Shown here in pieces: positions 7,976-15,599 of a stretch of 64,000 nucleotides of DNA. Position numbers and translations under genes: made by a program. Position 1 is the first letter of the stretch, and each line of letters starts with the position of its first letter. The notes below the pieces were generated by a model that was not told the origin of the DNA, did no database searches, and saw only the letters and a list, made by a program, of their open reading frames with translations. This stretch comes from Maricaulis alexandrii. GTDB taxonomy: Bacteria > Pseudomonadota > Alphaproteobacteria > Caulobacterales > Maricaulaceae. The stretch lies in contig NZ_SWKP01000005.1 in the NCBI RefSeq assembly GCF_005871165.1, positions 1 through 64,000 of the forward strand, in the 5' to 3' direction.

Positions 7976-9907
7976 CTAAGCGATCTGGAAGCGGCGGCGG
8001 ATTGTCAAAATGAGTTGGAACCAGAAAGCAACAGCTATGACTTGTTGAAGTACTCCCCACGCGCCCAGCCAAGCTCGAAGCCGAAACGAGTCGCCGACAC
8101 CCAAATGAGAAAATGGCTCTGCGTCAAAAGTCGATATTGCGATGGGACCGAACATGTTGCCGGAAGAAAATTCCAGAACGCTTGCAATTGTTGGATGGAC
8201 CGGTGCCCCAAGTGAAAGGCCAACGCCCTCCCATGCCGCTGGGGCCATAACTCCTATCGATAGAAGAAAGAAGCACACGCTGACCACAAAAAGCGTCAAC
8301 AGAGACCGACCTGCACGAAGGGGCGACAATCCGTAATCGCTGCACCAACCATAAGCCTTGGCTAAAAGCTTTTCAGCAAATGGGGCACGCGACTGCCGCT
8401 GCCTCGCCATCAGCGCAAGTTTATGGAGCCGATGCTTCCTCAGAACATCACCTCGGATCTCTGCTGCGGTCTGCAAGGTTCTAGCGCCAGACTCTAATGC
8501 GAGAAGCGCTGTGTCACCGGATTGACTTGCAGGTTCAAGCGCTTTTTCGAAAAAAACCTTCTCTTCCTCTGACTCAACCAAGGATGGGTAATCTATTCCA
8601 TCTTCTAGCCGAGCCCCTCCAAAAGCAGCAACAGCGTGGACGCATTGGTCAGACCATAGGGCCCGCTTCTTAAATATCGCTCCGCTAAATGCCTCCTGAA
8701 AGTTCGCTGGATCATCCGTCAGCTCAACATTTTTGAAGGAACACTTCCCATGAAACTCAGAACTGGAGAAATTTACCTTCCCCTCAAGTCTCGCTCGCCT
8801 AACCTCTGCACCCTTGGGGGCAATATCGTCGCCAAGCGAGAAACTACCACAAAACCTGCAATCCTGAGCTTCAAAGCTTCCCTGAACAACAATTCCATCG
8901 GCTTCAAATCGTTCAGCGAACGTGCTTCTGATTGAATTAAACGAGCCCCCGATTTTTGCTTGATCGGCCCGAAATACGTCGTCAAAGCGAGCCCAATACG
9001 CTTCAAAATTTTGCTGTACGCGTAGTCGCCAGACAGAAACTCTCGAATGAAACACGCCCATTGCGATAGAAATTGAATGCAAGTTCGCCGAATGAAAATC
9101 AGCCCGTTCAAAAAATTCGCAACCATGAAGGTCAAGTGCGCATTCGGGATCGTGTGGCGTTATGCTCGCCTCATCACAAAAAATGCTACCGCTAAACGAA
9201 ATCGATCCATTTGCCGTTCCCGACCAATGAAGTTTCCCATCAAATAAGGAACTCAAGAAACCCGACCCACCACCCATGTGTGATTGGAGCCAGACCGCGG
9301 GCCCAACTAAAAGGCAGTTCCTAGCATAGATATCGAGTTCCCGATCGGCGAACCATTTGGCCTGCAATATCGAACCACTCAGCTGAGCACGACCGTCAAA
9401 ACCGACGAGATGCCGAGATCCATCCTCATGCTCCTCGACACCCATACGGTCCGATGAAGACGCCTCCAACTTCCGCTCAACCTCTTCCTGCAGCCGTGCA
9501 GTCTCCGATGAGCTCCAATTGTTTTTGAAGCTATGTGCAATTTGTGGCGCTAGGCCTGATGCCTCCGCATTCGGAAAGTGCGCGATATGAAAAGGCGTGC
9601 CTACATGGCTGATGAGCAATCCAGCGCTTCTCAGCTCGTCATCTGACCTAAATTTTTGCCTGACATGGTCAAAGCGCCAATAGTCTTGCAGAGAACAGGC
9701 GACGGCACCTTTCGGCACGTCACCCTGACGATGAACAATTCCATCTTTGTGGTAGTGCCCGAGCCATTGGTGCCGTGGGATACCGTCGGCGCTTCTCTTG
9801 CCGAGTCCTTCCCATGAATAATCGGCTCCGCGCCATTCACCATACCAGCGAGCAATCCTATCTTTTCTAACCCTGTCCAGCTGCTCGATGTCCAAAGCTT
9901 CACCCAA
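7976..9907 (-). CDS. AT-rich pentapeptide-repeat-like protein with C-terminal membrane domain
   Basis: 643 residues. The first 150 are soluble with no match I recognise. Residues about 170-430 repeat short units with an aromatic or leucine in the middle (ADFHSANLHSI, GKVNFSSSEF, GSFEAQDCRF), typical of degenerate pentapeptide beta-helices. Residues about 520-640 contain AYGWCSDYGLSPLRAG, two or three membrane helices and a basic RRRFQIA tail, an arrangement seen in membrane pentapeptide proteins. The start is TTG with a weak ribosome site and is uncertain. Base composition and codon use are visibly more AT-rich than on either side, suggesting transfer. Function unknown. Confidence 0.75.
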   Translation of the reverse strand: MGEALDIEQLDRVRKDRIARWYGEWRGADYSWEGLGKRSADGIPRHQWLGHYHKDGIVHRQGDVPKGAVACSLQDYWRFDHVRQKFRSDDELRSAGLLISHVGTPFHIAHFPNAEASGLAPQIAHSFKNNWSSSETARLQEEVERKLEASSSDRMGVEEHEDGSRHLVGFDGRAQLSGSILQAKWFADRELDIYARNCLLVGPAVWLQSHMGGGSGFLSSLFDGKLHWSGTANGSISFSGSIFCDEASITPHDPECALDLHGCEFFERADFHSANLHSISIAMGVFHSRVSVWRLRVQQNFEAYWARFDDVFRADQAKIGGSFNSIRSTFAERFEADGIVVQGSFEAQDCRFCGSFSLGDDIAPKGAEVRRARLEGKVNFSSSEFHGKCSFKNVELTDDPANFQEAFSGAIFKKRALWSDQCVHAVAAFGGARLEDGIDYPSLVESEEEKVFFEKALEPASQSGDTALLALESGARTLQTAAEIRGDVLRKHRLHKLALMARQRQSRAPFAEKLLAKAYGWCSDYGLSPLRAGRSLLTLFVVSVCFFLLSIGVMAPAAWEGVGLSLGAPVHPTIASVLEFSSGNMFGPIAISTFDAEPFSHLGVGDSFRLRAWLGAWGVLQQVIAVAFWFQLILTIRRRFQIA

Positions 9908-9927
9908 ATCTCAAATGGTCACCAAAC

Positions 9928-10659
9928 TTAGAACTTGAAATCCGGAAGCGCGTCAAAGGCGACTTTCAGGGCGTCGCTCCAGCCGGAGGAAATCTGGTTG
10001 AAATAGTCATCATCCGGCTCGATGCGACGCTGGATGCCCGGCTCCAGCGTGTCGGCCGTGTAGACATGCATGTCCAGCGGCAGGCCGACGGAGAGATTGG
10101 CTTTCAGCGTGCTGTCAAAGGAGACATAGAGCAGCTTCACCGCCGCCTCCATGCTCATCGCCGGATCGAAGGCGCGCACCAGGATCGGGCGGCCATATTT
10201 GGTTTCGCCGGACTGGAAGAAGGGCGTCTCCTCGCCGGCCTCGATGAAATTACCCTCCGGGTAGACCAGGAAGAGGCGCGGCTCCATGCCCTTGATCTGG
10301 CCGCCGACGATCAGCGTCGCGCTGAACGGGCTCTCCGAGACCGGCCCCTCGCCGGCCTGGTGGCGGACGCATTCCTTCAGCGTGTCGCCGACAATCGTGG
10401 CGACCTGGAACATGGTCGGCGCCTCGAGGAAGGTCGGGCGGCGCTCATCGGGAATTTTCGAACGCTCTTCCAGCAGGTTGATGACCGCCTGCGTGGTCGC
10501 CAGATTGCCCGCCGTCATGATCGTGATGACACGTTCGCCGGGCACGGACCAGGTGAAGAGCTTGCGGAATTTGGAGACATTGTCGACGCCCGCATTGGTG
10601 CGGGTATCGGACATGAAGATCAGACCCGAATTGAGGCGCATGCCGACGCAATAGGTCAC
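9928..10659 (-). CDS. Anbu-type proteasome-like peptidase (COG3484)
   Basis: 243 residues. The start MTYCVG matches Anbu, the bacterial ancestral beta subunit related to HslV. Removing Met exposes Thr1, and Asp17 sits exactly where the proteasome catalytic Asp lies (FMSDTRTNAG). A lysine at 29 or 32 (SKFRKLF) could serve as the Lys33 equivalent. Anbu proteins form open helical or ring assemblies with poorly known substrates. It is last in a same-strand run after ATP-grasp, alpha-E and transglutaminase genes, an association seen in many proteobacteria. The ATG is the only start that leaves Thr1 at the N-terminus. Confidence 0.9.
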   Translation of the reverse strand: MTYCVGMRLNSGLIFMSDTRTNAGVDNVSKFRKLFTWSVPGERVITIMTAGNLATTQAVINLLEERSKIPDERRPTFLEAPTMFQVATIVGDTLKECVRHQAGEGPVSESPFSATLIVGGQIKGMEPRLFLVYPEGNFIEAGEETPFFQSGETKYGRPILVRAFDPAMSMEAAVKLLYVSFDSTLKANLSVGLPLDMHVYTADTLEPGIQRRIEPDDDYFNQISSGWSDALKVAFDALPDFKF

Positions 10660-10693
10660 CGGGAATCACTCTCCAGAAAAGCCGGGTCCAGCG

Positions 10694-11494
10694 TTACTGC
10701 TGGACCTGCAGGGTGACAAGCAGGGTTTCCTCGCCGCCGCCATAGGTCACGCCCGAAATGGGAGCCGCTTCGCCATAATCCAGCCCGGTGGCGACGCGGA
10801 CATAACGTTCGTCCGGGGAGATCCCGTTGGACGGGTCGAAACCGACCCAGCCGAGGCTGTCGATATGGACTTCGGCCCAGGCGTGACTGGCTTCCTGGTC
10901 CACGACCCCGTCCATCAGCAGATAGCCACTGACATAGCGGGCGGGAAGGCCCATCTGGCGCGCCATGCCGACTAAAATATGAGCATGGTCCTGGCAGACG
11001 CCGTGACGCTTTTCCGCAGCGTCCTCGCCGCTCGTGGCCACATGCGTGGACCCGACATCATAGCGGACTTCCTCGGCAATCAGCCGCGACAGGGCGTGCA
11101 GACGCGCCAACGTGTTTTCGGCATCGTCCGGCAGGGCTTTGGCCAGTTTGCGCATGGCCGGTCCTGGACGGGTCCGATCCGTCTGGCGGGTATAATACCA
11201 GAGCGGTGCCGGGCTCTTGTGCGGCCCCGTCATGCCCGACGTATCGCGGGTTTCCACCACGCCACGGCAGGCAATCACCAGGTCGCGGCTGCCCGGATCA
11301 ACCCGCACCAGATCGACAGCATTCCCGTGCTCATCGGTAAAGCGGGCCTGCAGTGTGCCCCCTTCGATGGTCAGCTCCCAGTCCGACACATCCTGCACGT
11401 CACTGCTGAGCGGTCTCAACCGGACTTGCTGCAGGCCGTAGGGGATGGGCGTCTCGAAGGTATAGCGGGTCTGGTGGGCGATGGTCAGCTGCAT
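10694..11494 (-). CDS. Transglutaminase-like cysteine protease family protein
   Basis: 266 residues. An N-terminal beta domain (MQLTIAHQTRYTFETPIPYG) precedes the transglutaminase core. The catalytic triad is visible: Cys in RHGVCQDHAHI, His in ASHAWAEVHI and Asp in GWVGFDPSNG. Such proteins cleave or cross-link amide bonds. In Anbu clusters the target is unknown. I used MQLTIAH at 11494 because the longer frame upstream is antisense-like coding of the alpha-E gene. It lies five bases after the alpha-E stop, so the genes are almost certainly co-transcribed. Confidence 0.92.
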   Translation of the reverse strand: MQLTIAHQTRYTFETPIPYGLQQVRLRPLSSDVQDVSDWELTIEGGTLQARFTDEHGNAVDLVRVDPGSRDLVIACRGVVETRDTSGMTGPHKSPAPLWYYTRQTDRTRPGPAMRKLAKALPDDAENTLARLHALSRLIAEEVRYDVGSTHVATSGEDAAEKRHGVCQDHAHILVGMARQMGLPARYVSGYLLMDGVVDQEASHAWAEVHIDSLGWVGFDPSNGISPDERYVRVATGLDYGEAAPISGVTYGGGEETLLVTLQVQQ

Positions 11495-11499
11495 CGGCT

Positions 11500-12441
11500 C
11501 TACTCGTAAAAGCGGTAATCGGCTTCGATCTGGCGGCCGAGCGCATTGTTGCGGGACAGGAAGTCGGTGATGAATTCGTGCAGGCCGGCGGCGAAGATGT
11601 CGTCGATCGTCATCCGGTTGAGCCGCGCCTGCCCCTCTTCGGCCATGTCCTGGCAGGGCTTTCGCATGTCGTACTCGCGCTCCAGGGCGGAGAGATTGTC
11701 GACGATCTCGCACCAGCAATAATAGAGCGAGCGCGGCATGTGCCGGTCCAGGATGAGGAAGTCGGCGATATGCGACGGATCATTCTCGCCGCCATGCAGC
11801 CAGGAATAGGACCGGTCCGCCGAGACCGAGCGCAGCACCGTCTCCCATTGCACATTGTCGAGCGAGGAACCGACATAAGAGGTGGCGGGCAGGAGGACGT
11901 AATACTTCACGTCCAGCAGGCGGGCCGTGTTGTCGGCGCGCTCCACGAATGTCCCCAGCCGCGCATAGGCGAAAATATCGTCCTGCAGCATGGTACCGTA
12001 GAGCTGACCCCGGACCAGGGCGCTCTGCTGCCGCACCGCGGACATGAGGGCTGGGAGTTCTGCAATACGGACCGGGCGCCGCAGCAGTTCGCGCAGGGTC
12101 ATCCAGCCTTCATTGACCGCTTCCCAGACATCGCGGGTCAGGGAAGTGCGGACCTGGCGGGCATTGCGCCGCGCACCTTCGAACAGGGTCATGACGCTGG
12201 CCGGATTGTCCGGGCTGCGCATCATGAAATCGATCACCGGCCCGGTCTCGAACGTGTCGTGGACCTCCAGGAAGGCATCGCGGCAACCCGCCGTGGTGAT
12301 GATGGACTCCCATTCGCCCTCGGCACTGACCGAGCGGGTCAGGGCCATGCGGAAGCCGGCCTCGACCAGGCGGGCCGTGTTTTCAGCGCGTTCGAGTTGG
12401 CGGAACATCCAGTAGAGGCCGCAGGCATGCCGTCCCAGCAT
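11500..12441 (-). CDS. Alpha-E domain-containing protein
   Basis: 313 residues, nearly all helical, opening MLGRHACGLYWMFRQLERAENTARL, the signature of the alpha-E (DUF403) family. The same ERAENTARLL pattern recurs near residue 165 (FVERADNTARLLDVKYY), suggesting an internal duplication. Alpha-E proteins travel with circularly permuted ATP-grasp and transglutaminase genes and have been proposed to act in peptide-bond formation. No activity has been shown that I know of. One base separates it from the ATP-grasp gene. Confidence 0.92.
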   Translation of the reverse strand: MLGRHACGLYWMFRQLERAENTARLVEAGFRMALTRSVSAEGEWESIITTAGCRDAFLEVHDTFETGPVIDFMMRSPDNPASVMTLFEGARRNARQVRTSLTRDVWEAVNEGWMTLRELLRRPVRIAELPALMSAVRQQSALVRGQLYGTMLQDDIFAYARLGTFVERADNTARLLDVKYYVLLPATSYVGSSLDNVQWETVLRSVSADRSYSWLHGGENDPSHIADFLILDRHMPRSLYYCWCEIVDNLSALEREYDMRKPCQDMAEEGQARLNRMTIDDIFAAGLHEFITDFLSRNNALGRQIEADYRFYE

Positions 12442-12442
12442 A

Positions 12443-13858
12443 TCAGTCCTCCAGTATCCAGGTGTCTTTGGTACCGCCGCCCTGGGAGGAGTTCACCACC
12501 AGGGAGCCCTTCTTCATCGCGACGCGGGTCAGCCCGCCCGGCGTGATGTCGATCCGGTCCGGCGAGACCAGGACAAAGGGCCGAAGATCGACATGGCGCG
12601 GGGCCAGCCCGGCCTTGGTCAGAACCGGAACGGTCGACAGGGAAAGCGTCGGCTGCGCGATATAGTTGGCCGGCCTGGCCTTGAGCTTCTTGCGGAAGCC
12701 GGCGATTTCCTTCTTGCTCGCCGCCGGCCCGACCAGCATGCCGTAACCGCCGGAGCCATGGACCTCCTTGACGACCAGGTCCTCCAGATTGTCGAGGACA
12801 TAGGCCAGGGCGTCCGGCTCGGCACAGCGCCAGGTCGGGACATTCTTCAGGATGGGCGGTTTGCCGGTATAGAATTCGATGATCTCCGGCATGTAGGAAT
12901 AGATCGCCTTGTCATCGGCCACGCCCGTGCCCGGCGCATTGGCGATGGTGATGCCGCCGGCGCGGTAGACATCCATGATGCCCGGAACGCCCAGCACACT
13001 GTCCGACCGGAAGTTCAGCGGATCGAGATAGTCATCATCCACCCGGCGGTAGAGGACATCGATCGGCGTGTAACCCTGCGTGGTTCGCATCGCGATGCGT
13101 CCATCCACGACGCGAAGGTCATGCCCCTCGACCAGGGCGGCGCCCATCTGGTCCGCCAGGAAGGCGTGCTCGAAATAGGCGGAGTTGTGGATGCCCGGAG
13201 TCAGCACGGCAATGGTCGGCCGGGCCCCGCGACTGGCCGGCGGCGCGCTTCGGGCCAAAGCCCGGCGCAGATTGACCGGATAATCGCCGACCGGCTGGAC
13301 CGGGACGCGGGAAAAGAGTTCCGGGAACATGCGCAGCATGGTTTCCCGGTTTTCGATCATGTAGGAGACGCCCGACGGTGTGCGGGCATTGTCTTCGAGC
13401 ACGTAGAATTCGTTCGGACCGGTCCGGACGAGGTCGGTGCCCACAATGTGGGTATAGACGCCACCCGGCGGCGACACCCCGATCATCTGGGGCAGGAAGG
13501 CCTGATTCTCGGCGATCAGATTGAGCGGCAGGCGACCCGCCTTAATGATTTCCTGCTTGTGATAGATGTCGTGCAGGAAGGCATTGATGGCGCGGACCCG
13601 CTGCTCGATGCCGCGCTCCAGCCGCGCCCATTCGCGGGCCGAAATGACCCGCGGCACGATGTCGAACGGGATCAGGCGCTCATCCGCATCCCGGGCTCCG
13701 TAGACATTGAAGGTGATGCCGGTACGACGGAAGAATGTCTCCGCCTCGCGCGACTTGCGGGCGAGTTCGGCGGGCGTGTAGTCGGACAGCCAGCGCGCAT
13801 ACTCCTCATAGGGTTCCCGCGGTGCGCCCGCTTCATCATGCATCTCATTGAACGCCAC
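12443..13858 (-). CDS. Circularly permuted type 2 ATP-grasp protein
   Basis: 471 residues matching the CP_ATPgrasp_2 (DUF404/DUF407) family, with VLEDNARTPSGVSYMIENRE, the RRVDDDYLDPL segment and KEVHGSGGYGMLVGP as nucleotide-binding features. ATP-grasp enzymes join a carboxylate to an amine or thiol through an acyl-phosphate. The natural product here is unknown. It is first in the four-gene minus-strand cluster and is followed with one-base spacing by alpha-E. A promoter-like sequence lies about 190 bases upstream. Confidence 0.92.
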   Translation of the reverse strand: MAFNEMHDEAGAPREPYEEYARWLSDYTPAELARKSREAETFFRRTGITFNVYGARDADERLIPFDIVPRVISAREWARLERGIEQRVRAINAFLHDIYHKQEIIKAGRLPLNLIAENQAFLPQMIGVSPPGGVYTHIVGTDLVRTGPNEFYVLEDNARTPSGVSYMIENRETMLRMFPELFSRVPVQPVGDYPVNLRRALARSAPPASRGARPTIAVLTPGIHNSAYFEHAFLADQMGAALVEGHDLRVVDGRIAMRTTQGYTPIDVLYRRVDDDYLDPLNFRSDSVLGVPGIMDVYRAGGITIANAPGTGVADDKAIYSYMPEIIEFYTGKPPILKNVPTWRCAEPDALAYVLDNLEDLVVKEVHGSGGYGMLVGPAASKKEIAGFRKKLKARPANYIAQPTLSLSTVPVLTKAGLAPRHVDLRPFVLVSPDRIDITPGGLTRVAMKKGSLVVNSSQGGGTKDTWILED

Positions 13859-14048
13859 ACATCACCTTTGCCGCTGGATCGCGCGCACAGGGCCGCGAAT
13901 TCCGGCGATGCGCCGAACCGCACCGCGTCTGAAGGACTGTGTTCTGACGATCCCGCCTGCATTCGGCAGAGCGGGAGAAGCCGGGCCTGTGGTCGCCGCG
14001 CGCCCGCTCTTGATGGCGGCGCTTGATAGCTCCCAGAACACCTTGTTT

Positions 14049-14075
14049 TTTATAGTGTCGAGCGCGGTCGGGCAA
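14049..14075 (-). promoter_or_regulatory. Possible promoter of the ATP-grasp/Anbu cluster
   Basis: On the minus strand TTGCCC (14070-14075) and TATAAA (14049-14054) are separated by 15 bases, slightly short for a housekeeping promoter. It sits directly next to the end of the tetR gene and would give a leader of about 185 nt before the ATP-grasp start. No operator-like repeat is seen in the leader. Confidence 0.35.
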
Positions 14076-14077
14076 CT

Positions 14078-14740
14078 CTAGGGGTTCGGGTTTTCGTCCG
14101 AATCCGGCCCGGTAACCAGATATCCGTAGATCGTGTCCGCCATCGCGGCGACAAACTGGTCGTCGCTCAGGCGGATCAGGGCCCCGGCCCCGTCCTCCGG
14201 ATAGAGGCCCCGCTCCAGGGGCAGGGTGTTGAGCAGATAGGCCAGCATCTGGGCCGCCGTCTCCGGATCACCCATCCGGACCTCATCGGCGAACAGGTCA
14301 ATGACCTGACGGGCCGAGGCCAGGCTGGCATCGATATAGGCCTGCCAGTCATCGCCCACGAGATCGGGACGCAGGCGGGCATAGAGATGGGCCGCCTGAA
14401 GCAGGTGGCCGTGTTCACGCAGAAAACCCCAGGCCGAGCCCATGATCTGGCGAAGCGCCGCGCGGAGGCCTTGCCCGGGGTCCAGTTCAATCCGGCCCTC
14501 GGCGGCCATGTAGGCGTCGAGCCGGGCCCGGTAGAGCTCGAAGATCACCGGGATGAAGGCGTCCTTGTTCTCGAAGCGGCGATAGACCGTGCCCACGGCC
14601 AGTCCGGCTTCAGTGGCCAGCTCCGCCATGGTGAGGCTGTCGAAGGCGCGGGTACGGAGCAGGCGCTCCAACGCGGCCACAAGTTTGTCCCGCGTGGCCC
14701 GCGATCGCGCCTGGCTGGCCGGTTTGGTGCCTTGACTCAT
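14078..14740 (-). CDS. TetR/AcrR-family transcriptional regulator
   Basis: 220 residues. The N-terminal helix-turn-helix is clear (RDKLVAALERLL, then MAELATEAGLAVGTVYRRFENKDAF). The C-terminal ligand domain is variable, as usual. It is transcribed divergently from a CPBP protease gene, with a 24-bp palindrome in the gap that is probably its operator. It therefore likely represses itself and the protease. I chose MSQGTKP at 14740; the upstream in-frame extension would run through the palindrome. Confidence 0.9.
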   Translation of the reverse strand: MSQGTKPASQARSRATRDKLVAALERLLRTRAFDSLTMAELATEAGLAVGTVYRRFENKDAFIPVIFELYRARLDAYMAAEGRIELDPGQGLRAALRQIMGSAWGFLREHGHLLQAAHLYARLRPDLVGDDWQAYIDASLASARQVIDLFADEVRMGDPETAAQMLAYLLNTLPLERGLYPEDGAGALIRLSDDQFVAAMADTIYGYLVTGPDSDENPNP

Positions 14741-14758
14741 CTCAACCCACTCTCTAAA

Positions 14759-14782
14759 TGCGAATGAGAATTCGCATTCGCA
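14759..14782. promoter_or_regulatory. Palindromic operator between tetR and CPBP gene
   Basis: TGCGAATGAGAATTCGCATT plus CGCA forms a 24-bp near-perfect palindrome centred on GAATTC; arms TGCGAATG and CATTCGCA match exactly. Its place 18 bases before the tetR start, in the divergent gap, fits a TetR-family operator. Confidence 0.7.
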
Positions 14783-14849
14783 ATTTGATCGTCTGCTTGG
14801 TCGCATCAGGGACCCGGCAGGTCAATCCCGCCCAGCCGAAGGACATGCC

Positions 14850-15599
14850 ATGCTCTCCCCGCTCCTGACCGAACCCGCCCTGCTCGCCGGCCTCTCAGCC
14901 ATCGCCGTCCTGCTGGTCATCACCTGGGTGGTTGACCTGCTGGACCTGCGCCGGAAACGCGCCAGCCAGCCGGGCTATTCCAAGCGCAAGGCCTATGCCC
15001 GCACCATGCTCATGCTGTGGACGACGGCGGCGCTGTGTGTCGCCGCCTGGCTCGGCTCCGGCCGCGATCTGGCAACGCTGGGCCTGTCAGCCGGAACGGG
15101 TTGGCGCGGTCTGGCGGGATGGATCGCGGCCCTGCTGGCCTCGGCCTATGTCATCTACACGATCTATCTGGCGGCCACGTCCCGCGAGGCCCGCGCGAAC
15201 ATCCGGCAGCAATTCGACACGGCGAAAGGGATGGATCTCCTGCGGCCGCAAACCCGGAAGGAACATCGCGACTTCCAATTCCTGTCGGTCACCGCCGGGG
15301 TCACGGAGGAGATCATTTTCCGGGGCTTCCTGATTGGCGCCCTCGCCCTGGTTCTGCCGCTCTGGCTGGCCGCGTTTGTCTCGGTCGCGGCCTTCCTGCT
15401 GGCGCACATCTATCAGGGCGCCGCCGGGCTCGGTCGGATTGCACCGGTCACCCTCGTGATGACCGGGATTTTCCTGGTCTCCGGCACGCTCTGGCCCGCC
15501 ATTCTCCTGCACTGCCTGGTCGATGCCGCCGCGGGCGGAATGATCGCGCTGGTGGATCATCATGAAGCGGCCGACAAGGCCGAACCCGTCCCCGCCTAG
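14850..15599 (+). CDS. CPBP-family intramembrane metalloprotease
   Basis: 249 residues with about seven membrane segments and the CPBP motifs EEIIFRGF, LLAHIYQG and ILLHCLVDAA. It is the second CPBP protein in the window and is not closely similar to the one at 3.8 kb outside the motifs. It is divergent from tetR and probably controlled by it. The stop codon overlaps the recF stop on the other strand in a shared CTAG. The start at 14850 follows GAAGGA; ATG 14845 is in another frame. Confidence 0.87.
   Translation: MLSPLLTEPALLAGLSAIAVLLVITWVVDLLDLRRKRASQPGYSKRKAYARTMLMLWTTAALCVAAWLGSGRDLATLGLSAGTGWRGLAGWIAALLASAYVIYTIYLAATSREARANIRQQFDTAKGMDLLRPQTRKEHRDFQFLSVTAGVTEEIIFRGFLIGALALVLPLWLAAFVSVAAFLLAHIYQGAAGLGRIAPVTLVMTGIFLVSGTLWPAILLHCLVDAAAGGMIALVDHHEAADKAEPVPA

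Follow-up and report, generated by a model that had tools for sequence, protein, structure and literature searches.

The operon described here lies in a stretch of 64,000 nucleotides from Maricaulis alexandrii (NCBI RefSeq assembly GCF_005871165.1, contig NZ_SWKP01000005.1, positions 1 to 64,000 of the forward strand), the whole of which is referred to below as the window. On its minus strand, at positions 9928-13858, four genes encoding a circularly permuted ATP-grasp (cpATP-grasp) protein, an alpha-E protein, a transglutaminase-like protein (TG) and the proteasome homologue Anbu follow one another with intergenic gaps of 1, 5 and 34 bases, and this cluster is an intact copy of the known four-gene Anbu operon. 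From its comparison with other genomes we propose, with a probability of about 0.5, that the ligase, alpha-E and TG make up an amide-ligating core to which Anbu is joined as an optional trimmer, and that in this host the operon is intact and vertically inherited. To the published picture the analysis adds an order of dependency in which the core comes first, a duplicated alpha-E for which no fold relative was found in PDB or BFVD, and the loss of conserved residues in fused ATP-grasp paralogues.

Anbu and the three-gene core

The occurrence of Anbu and alpha-E was followed in two overlapping surveys, of 240 alphaproteobacterial genomes and of 299 genomes of the phylum. In the first, alpha-E was found in 83 genomes, Anbu in 63 and both in 62, and in the second the corresponding numbers were 156, 102 and 101. 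When the surveys were combined, 226 genomes carried alpha-E, 154 carried Anbu and 152 carried both; Anbu without alpha-E was seen in 2 of the 154 (G206 and G378), while no Anbu was seen in 74 of the 226 alpha-E genomes. The association extends to genomes in which the two genes are not neighbors. Among the alphaproteobacteria, 20 Anbu genomes have no listed alpha-E closer than 12 kb to Anbu, and 19 of them carry alpha-E all the same, compared with 40 of the 197 genomes without a linked pair, and in the phylum the same was true of 15 of 16 such genomes, compared with 70 of 213. Since nearly all Anbu genomes have alpha-E and many alpha-E genomes were found without Anbu, Anbu appears subordinate to the core, which suggests that Anbu depends on the core, that the core does not depend on Anbu, and that Anbu is a dispensable add-on. 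A first-pass annotation, made from the sequence alone, had assigned all four genes to one pathway; the association it described holds, but the comparative data separate three genes that suffice by themselves from an Anbu that is optional.

Several features of the surveys weigh against this dependency. The co-occurrence figures are raw genome counts in which kinship is ignored, the linkage in the phylum survey is a lower bound taken from the alpha-E among the matches listed, and 12 of the 20 unlinked alphaproteobacterial Anbu are Anbu-2-like genes of at most 39% identity. For 15 of the 20 unlinked alphaproteobacterial cases, and for 8 of the 16 in the phylum, the partners are on different contigs or alpha-E is outside the matches listed, and part of these may be linked across a contig gap. 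Furthermore, the Anbu hit in one genome (G430) is a 43-residue fragment, and that of G134 is likewise a fragment.

As had been proposed with the first-pass annotation, conservation and gene order were compared, here at 80 named loci, which are the best of at least 592 alpha-E relatives and are all 52-61% identical. The order ATP-grasp, alpha-E, TG, Anbu was exact in 56 of the 80; one further locus had the complete order together with a fused cluster, two were cut by contig ends, one had a frameshifted Anbu, and 20 had no Anbu despite more than 2 kb of sequence beyond TG. The claim that these families recur together was thus upheld, and had already been published (PMC5666114, PMC6376114). The Anbu-less trio has the same three core families in the same order as the operon of the window, and it occurs in two sorts, one made up of near relatives of the window's cluster and a more distant type of the same family and order. 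Most of the Anbu-less named loci (16 of 20) are labeled as Rhizobium, Agrobacterium, Sinorhizobium or other Rhizobiales, and no substitute gene for Anbu was common to the 8 of the 20 that were inspected. A conserved fifth gene was also considered and rejected, as the families of neighboring open reading frames (ORFs) of at least 100 aa each recurred at 19 of the 80 loci at most; the largest such family consisted of mixed ABC ATPases, and others look by eye like lineage synteny.

Individual loci vary further. One genome (G022) keeps an Anbu ORF (L026) beside which no core gene was found and has elsewhere only the more distant trio. In a Caulobacteraceae metagenome bin (L066, 3289-4016) Anbu is split over two frames near residue 120; alpha-E and TG were matched there at full length, and ATP-grasp from residue 35 onward. 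A clpA-like ORF was seen by eye within about 2 kb in 5 of 12 low-identity Anbu-like loci inspected (L142, L143, L144, L145 and L154, all alphaproteobacterial), with a clpS-like ORF, also identified by eye, near 4 of these 5; the pocket residues I20, A29 and R50 of L154 resemble Anbu-2.

Conserved residues were counted in the window and in 97 of 116 loci (L021-L136), namely those in which the matches to ATP-grasp, alpha-E and TG each covered more than 80% of the protein; the other 19 were dropped for incomplete matches. In all 98 sequences the ATP-grasp keeps Lys364, the SGGYG loop, Asp424 and Asn456, which, from known ATP-grasp enzymes, we take to be the ATP/metal site, so that the protein has the presumed ATP-site lysine and glycine-rich loop of a cpATP-grasp ligase. 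TG keeps Cys167, His204 and Asp220 in 98 of 98, presumably the catalytic triad, as was also assumed in the first-pass annotation, and this Cys-His-Asp arrangement within the fold is that of the transglutaminase-like superfamily. In Anbu, Thr1 was found in 71 of 72 sequences (one has Ser) and Asp17 and Lys32 in 72 of 72. The earlier statement that the catalytic residues of Anbu (Thr1, Asp17) and TG are intact is therefore borne out, and extends to near-invariance across loci. With Thr1, Asp17, Lys32 and the S1 pocket residues T20, F30, T48, L52 and T55, the Anbu of the window is of the Anbu-1 type, for which the pocket is defined as T20, F30, T48 and L52 with S or T at position 55 (PMC5666114).

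Across the 56 complete loci the median identity to the window proteins was 77% for ATP-grasp, 64% for Anbu, 56% for alpha-E and 51% for TG. Comparison with a close relative (G001) gave ratios of nonsynonymous to synonymous substitution (dN/dS, by NG86) of 0.045 for ATP-grasp, 0.079 for alpha-E, 0.131 for TG and 0.080 for Anbu, values that place each of the four under purifying selection. TG is the fastest evolving of the four, being 82% identical to its counterpart in G001 compared with 93-96% for the others.

With all four families present in the conserved order, on one strand and with short gaps, the cluster has the makeup of the four-gene Anbu operon, and such an arrangement with intact residues is far beyond chance. 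The ORF coordinates and the Pfam matches (PF14403, 549 bits; PF04168, 286; PF01841, 83; PF08379, 62; PF00227, 33) confirm the four same-strand genes and spacings reported earlier, and the gaps are suggestive of co-transcription. Compared with the known operon, whose Anbu has been solved structurally in P. aeruginosa, Yersinia bercovieri and Hyphomicrobium, the families, order, residues and Anbu-1 pocket are the same and there is no difference in kind; what sets the window operon apart is its site between recF and gyrB, where it is missing from most of the genus members examined.

Alpha-E and the transglutaminase-like protein

An AlphaFold2 model of alpha-E was built from the window sequence and those of the 68 loci, out of 80, that passed a redundancy filter (69 sequences); it consists of helices only, with a mean predicted local distance difference test score (pLDDT) of 89.4 and a predicted template modeling score (pTM) of 0.87. 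A sequence search of PDB gave no match up to E 1, and a sequence profile gave one hit, at E 0.18. Foldseek found no match to the model at E<=0.001 in PDB (best 0.48) or BFVD (best 0.72), and an identity of its fold with a structure in either database is therefore unsupported. When the two halves of alpha-E were aligned with each other (hhalign, 86-sequence alignment), they matched over 135 columns with a probability of 98.6, an E value of 7e-16 and a score of 96.5, pairing E17-R18 with E167-R168, while 40 column-shuffled controls reached at most 19.6 and a reversed half 14.2. As the halves align so far above the shuffled controls, alpha-E is, judged from its sequence, an internal duplication with paired ER motifs. 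No statement of this duplication was met in those parts of the literature that were searched, a search to which Iyer et al. 2009 did not belong. The two ER helices may form a substrate site.

Like alpha-E, TG was modeled with AlphaFold2, from the window protein and its counterparts at 67 of the 80 loci (68 sequences; pLDDT 95.8, pTM 0.92). Its relative in PDB by sequence is 3isr (E 4e-14), which was also the only structure to give a template modeling score (TM) above 0.7 in Foldseek. The remaining 15 hits, of 18 at E<=0.001, were mostly transglutaminases with TM (by query) of 0.35 or less, and pseudomurein endoisopeptidase and PNGase appeared only at E >0.001.

Fused ATP-grasp/alpha-E paralogues

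In some genomes the unfused genes are accompanied or replaced by a fused cluster made up of a large TG, an ATP-grasp/alpha-E fusion and a small TG. Like the window operon it combines alpha-E with an ATP-grasp fold and a small TG; unlike it, the ATP-grasp is fused to alpha-E and has lost conserved residues, and in most cases a large TG-DUF2126-like ORF is nearby. We compared 25 fused proteins, of which 5 were found at loci already examined and 20 came from 31 matches in the alphaproteobacterial survey (below 240 bits, with an open frame of at least 740 aa; a partial match in G128 was not counted). None of the 25 keeps the residues at the alignment positions of Asp424 and Asn456; Gly370 is gone from 22 and Lys364 from 21, and the SGGYG string is missing from the 5 found at loci already examined. 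Glu230, Arg271, Arg426 and Asp465 are retained in 25 of 25 and Asp274 in 23, and the 14 unfused sequences in the same alignment keep all of these residues. We read this as a loss of the presumed ATP site with retention of the remainder.

An ORF resembling TG-DUF2126, with the L051 protein as best match, lay within the examined stretch for 22 of the 25 fused proteins (not for L185, L188 and L046), and the L051 protein itself matches PF09899 (DUF2126) with 1227 bits. As all 25 fused proteins lack two of the presumed ATP or metal residues and 22 have such an ORF near, there is a hint that another ligase took over in the fused clusters. Counting against it, DUF2126 was confirmed by Pfam in L051 only, and its designation as a ligase is Pfam's own "putative", a prediction. 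In two variant loci, L051 and L053 (G056 and G060), ATP-grasp, alpha-E and Anbu are found without the small TG, and a large TG, which in L051 is TG-DUF2126, adjoins them on the opposite strand.

A further reading, which we hold only tentatively, is that alpha-E is the invariant heart of amide-ligating systems in which the ligase may be either a live cpATP-grasp or a DUF2126 amidoligase, with TG and Anbu as alternative erasers. Just as tentatively, the fused ATP-grasp would be a dead scaffold, and alpha-E would present the substrate to a glutamine-synthetase-like DUF2126.

History in the host genus

Nineteen genomes of the host genus were examined, in all of which recF is present. The complete cluster was found between recF and gyrB in three (G000, G001 and G015), and in a 65% complete genome (G012) the start of the ATP-grasp gene lies at a contig end. 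The operon was thus scored at this site in 4 of 19 genomes, G012 being counted by its contig end alone; one genome has a remnant (G014, where only the C-terminal half of Anbu is left), and 14 lack the operon, in each of which recF and gyrB are on one stretch with no cluster gene. In a tree of recF and gyrB (FastTree, midpoint root) the carriers fall into two clades, mixed with non-carriers, and in a tree of the concatenated cluster from 98 loci the window, G001 and G015 group together with a support of 1.0, all at one locus. A chance or recently acquired cluster was rejected on the grounds of this grouping and common locus, and the simplest reading would be vertical descent with repeated loss in the genus. 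A decayed operon was also seen in another genus of the same family (G029), with pieces of ATP-grasp, alpha-E and Anbu (L027, 7460-8297; L028, 7483-7860) that contain stops and lie near contig ends, together with a transposase sequence read as IS30-like.

Proposed function and its alternatives

The four-gene operon and hypotheses of peptide synthesis or tagging have been credited to Valas & Bourne 2008 and Iyer et al. 2009 (PMC5666114, PMC6376114), and the function of Anbu was described as not known as of 2021 (PMC8665760). The interpretation in the first-pass annotation, a ligase paired with a hydrolase, is partly supported and largely anticipated by these reports. It had ATP-grasp and alpha-E jointly making a bond; a role for ATP-grasp is plausible, as the Yersinia bercovieri protein was reported to release phosphate from ATP (PMC6376114), but catalysis by alpha-E was without evidence in those parts of the literature searched. 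In our proposal the cpATP-grasp would activate a carboxylate with ATP and couple it to an amine, giving a peptide-like or isopeptide bond, and alpha-E, its constant neighbor, would be a non-catalytic two-repeat helical holder of substrate or product for the ligase. The cysteine enzyme with the TG fold would work on amides of this kind too, as isopeptidase or transamidase, ligase and TG together would set the level of the conjugate, and Anbu, an optional N-terminal nucleophile (Ntn) hydrolase that requires a core with no need of it, would trim the conjugate. Here we infer the reaction, the class of substrate, the direction of TG and the roles of alpha-E and Anbu. Glutathionylspermidine synthetase/amidase likewise pairs a ligase with a cysteine amidase on one amide. 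It serves here as an analogy; the PDB relative of the ATP-grasp (3n6x, E 1.5e-193) is titled "putative glutathionylspermidine synthase", and a profile search up to E 10 gave no evidence of kinship with the glutathionylspermidine enzymes, returning no chain besides 3n6x.

The core might also serve nitrogen-limited cells, a role transferred from Pseudomonas putida and Burkholderia cenocepacia. For nitrogen-limited P. putida the first data column lists 12.61 for TG, 11.04 for alpha-E, 14.66 for ATP-grasp and 1.12 for Anbu (PMC7801951), and the region upstream of the P. putida Anbu gene did not make a reporter respond to nitrogen (PMC8050072). In B. cenocepacia a cluster of ATP-grasp, alpha-E and a small and a large TG was found to be NtrC-dependent (PMC5491218), and in marine metagenomes domains of urea metabolism correlate with those of this operon (PMC3597751). 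In a preprint on Caulobacter NtrC, the transglutaminase homologue is hvyA (PMC10274813). The genome of Caulobacter vibrioides carries an alpha-E gene. By analogy, the operon of this host may have a link to nitrogen.

There are further points on the other side of the proposal. Two groups reported that Anbu left standard peptide substrates uncleaved (PMC5666114, PMC6376114), a pull-down showed no specific interaction among the operon proteins (PMC6376114), and the authors of PMC5666114 rate peptide synthesis below protein degradation in likelihood. For P. putida, Anbu reached 4.81 and 1.45 in the other two data columns (PMC7801951), and with nitrate versus ammonium the log2 values were 4.44 for Anbu and 3.99 for ATP-grasp (PMC8050072). 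Upstream of the operon in the window, the sigma-54 promoter that marks the NtrC/sigma-54 regulon in P. putida was not found at two or fewer mismatches.

A rival reading is that the operon serves protein tagging and degradation, as a distant functional analogue of pupylation in which ATP-grasp and alpha-E would attach a peptide, TG would edit it and Anbu would degrade the tagged protein. Tagging figures among the hypotheses in PMC6376114. Anbu is a proteasome homologue, and in P. aeruginosa its Thr1 was bound by the proteasome inhibitors epoxomicin and MG132 (PMC5666114). We nevertheless regard tagging as unlikely, given the 74 alpha-E genomes without a visible Anbu, the lack of an unfoldase among the four genes and of a widely recurring family near the 80 loci (although the scan of ORFs of at least 100 aa would miss a small tag), and the presence in the host genome of a second, stronger hit in the Proteasome-family search, read as HslV.

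Equally doubtful is a role in nitrogen scavenging, in which TG and Anbu would be amidases that free nitrogen from a polymer or from proteins and ATP-grasp would only activate or regulate. The induction by nitrogen limitation in P. putida (PMC7801951, PMC8050072), the NtrC dependence in B. cenocepacia (PMC5491218) and the urea-metabolism correlation (PMC3597751) would all fit such a role. The ATP-grasp, however, is the most conserved of the four proteins (77% compared with 51-64%), and since its presumed ATP-site residues are invariant as well (98 of 98), its own reaction appears to matter. That Anbu is a transpeptidase or ligase acting in concert with TG, like connectase, a proteasome-like protein that ligates (PMC8665760), would suit its failure to cleave the standard substrates (PMC5666114, PMC6376114), but the kinship is one of the same family and distant only, and we consider this very improbable.

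Regulation

The upstream region of the window operon held no sigma-54-like site at two or fewer mismatches, its best score being 11.5 of a maximum of 15, and sigma-54/NtrC control was rejected for the window on that ground. When 80 such regions were scored, from the window, G001, G015 and 77 of the named loci, the best score reached 13 in 11 regions, 13.5 in 8, 14 in 2 and 14.5 in none, compared with 5.2, 2.0, 0.65 and 0.1 expected from mononucleotide shuffles. There is an excess at 13.5, but the sites are scattered from -58 to -394, and because of this scatter no weight was given to it; for other species, the excess would still speak against dismissing such control.

No Rfam match up to E 1 was found at window positions 9000-15000. 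The hairpin ahead of Anbu (Table 1) was considered as an attenuator and rejected, as it is broken up in G001; it is not conserved and probably arose by chance. Of 71 TG-Anbu gaps, 6 scored as terminator-like compared with 2.3 expected.

The locus

The features of the locus are collected in Table 1. For TG the mechanically called ORF opens at TTG 11719, and the ATG at 11494 yields the 5-base gap. Anbu matched five distinct sequences in PDB (E 1.5e-86 to 2.2e-63), three of them named Anbu and two Peptidase.

Table 1. Features of the Anbu operon of the window and their positions
Feature	Position	Strand	Description
cpATP-grasp	12443..13858	-	471 aa, GTG start; PF14403/PF04174; predicted amide ligase; Lys364 codon 12767-12769
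alpha-E	11500..12441	-	313 aa, ATG start; PF04168; all-helical, two homologous halves
alpha-E repeat 1	11986..12441	-	residues 1-152, carries E17-R18
alpha-E repeat 2	11500..11985	-	residues 153-313, carries E167-R168
TG-like protein	10694..11494	-	266 aa; PF08379 + PF01841
TG catalytic codons	Cys167 10994-10996, His204 10883-10885, Asp220 10835-10837	-
Anbu	9928..10659	-	243 aa, GTG start; Anbu-1 type S1 pocket
Anbu catalytic codons	Thr1 10654-10656 (after GTG start), Asp17 10606-10608	-
Terminator-like hairpin	10685..10706	-	spans TG stop, ahead of Anbu
Operon upstream region, non-coding	13859..14077	-	no sigma-54-like site (<=2 mismatches), no Rfam match

The operon is flanked upstream by a TetR gene, an Rce1-like gene on the opposite strand, and then recF and dnaN, and downstream by an orphan ORF of 643 aa and gyrB; we assigned the names recF, dnaN and gyrB by reading the sequences. 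The orphan ORF (window 7976-9907, minus strand) begins 20 bases past the Anbu stop. It had no match in Pfam, NCBIfam or PHROG, and tblastn was blank in the examined stretches of other members of the genus; by eye it is pentapeptide-like, with membrane helices at the C-terminus.

Implications

If Anbu needs the core and the core does not need Anbu, then whoever looks for the Anbu substrate should begin with the product of the core and not with proteins. The alpha-E repeats and the residues lost in the fused ATP-grasps offer concrete positions for mutation, and the closely related species, in which the site is full, empty or holds a remnant, would allow metabolites to be compared without cloning. 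Should alpha-E be the heart of systems with exchangeable ligases, the genus, with its full, remnant and empty sites, would provide a natural knock-out series for the product.

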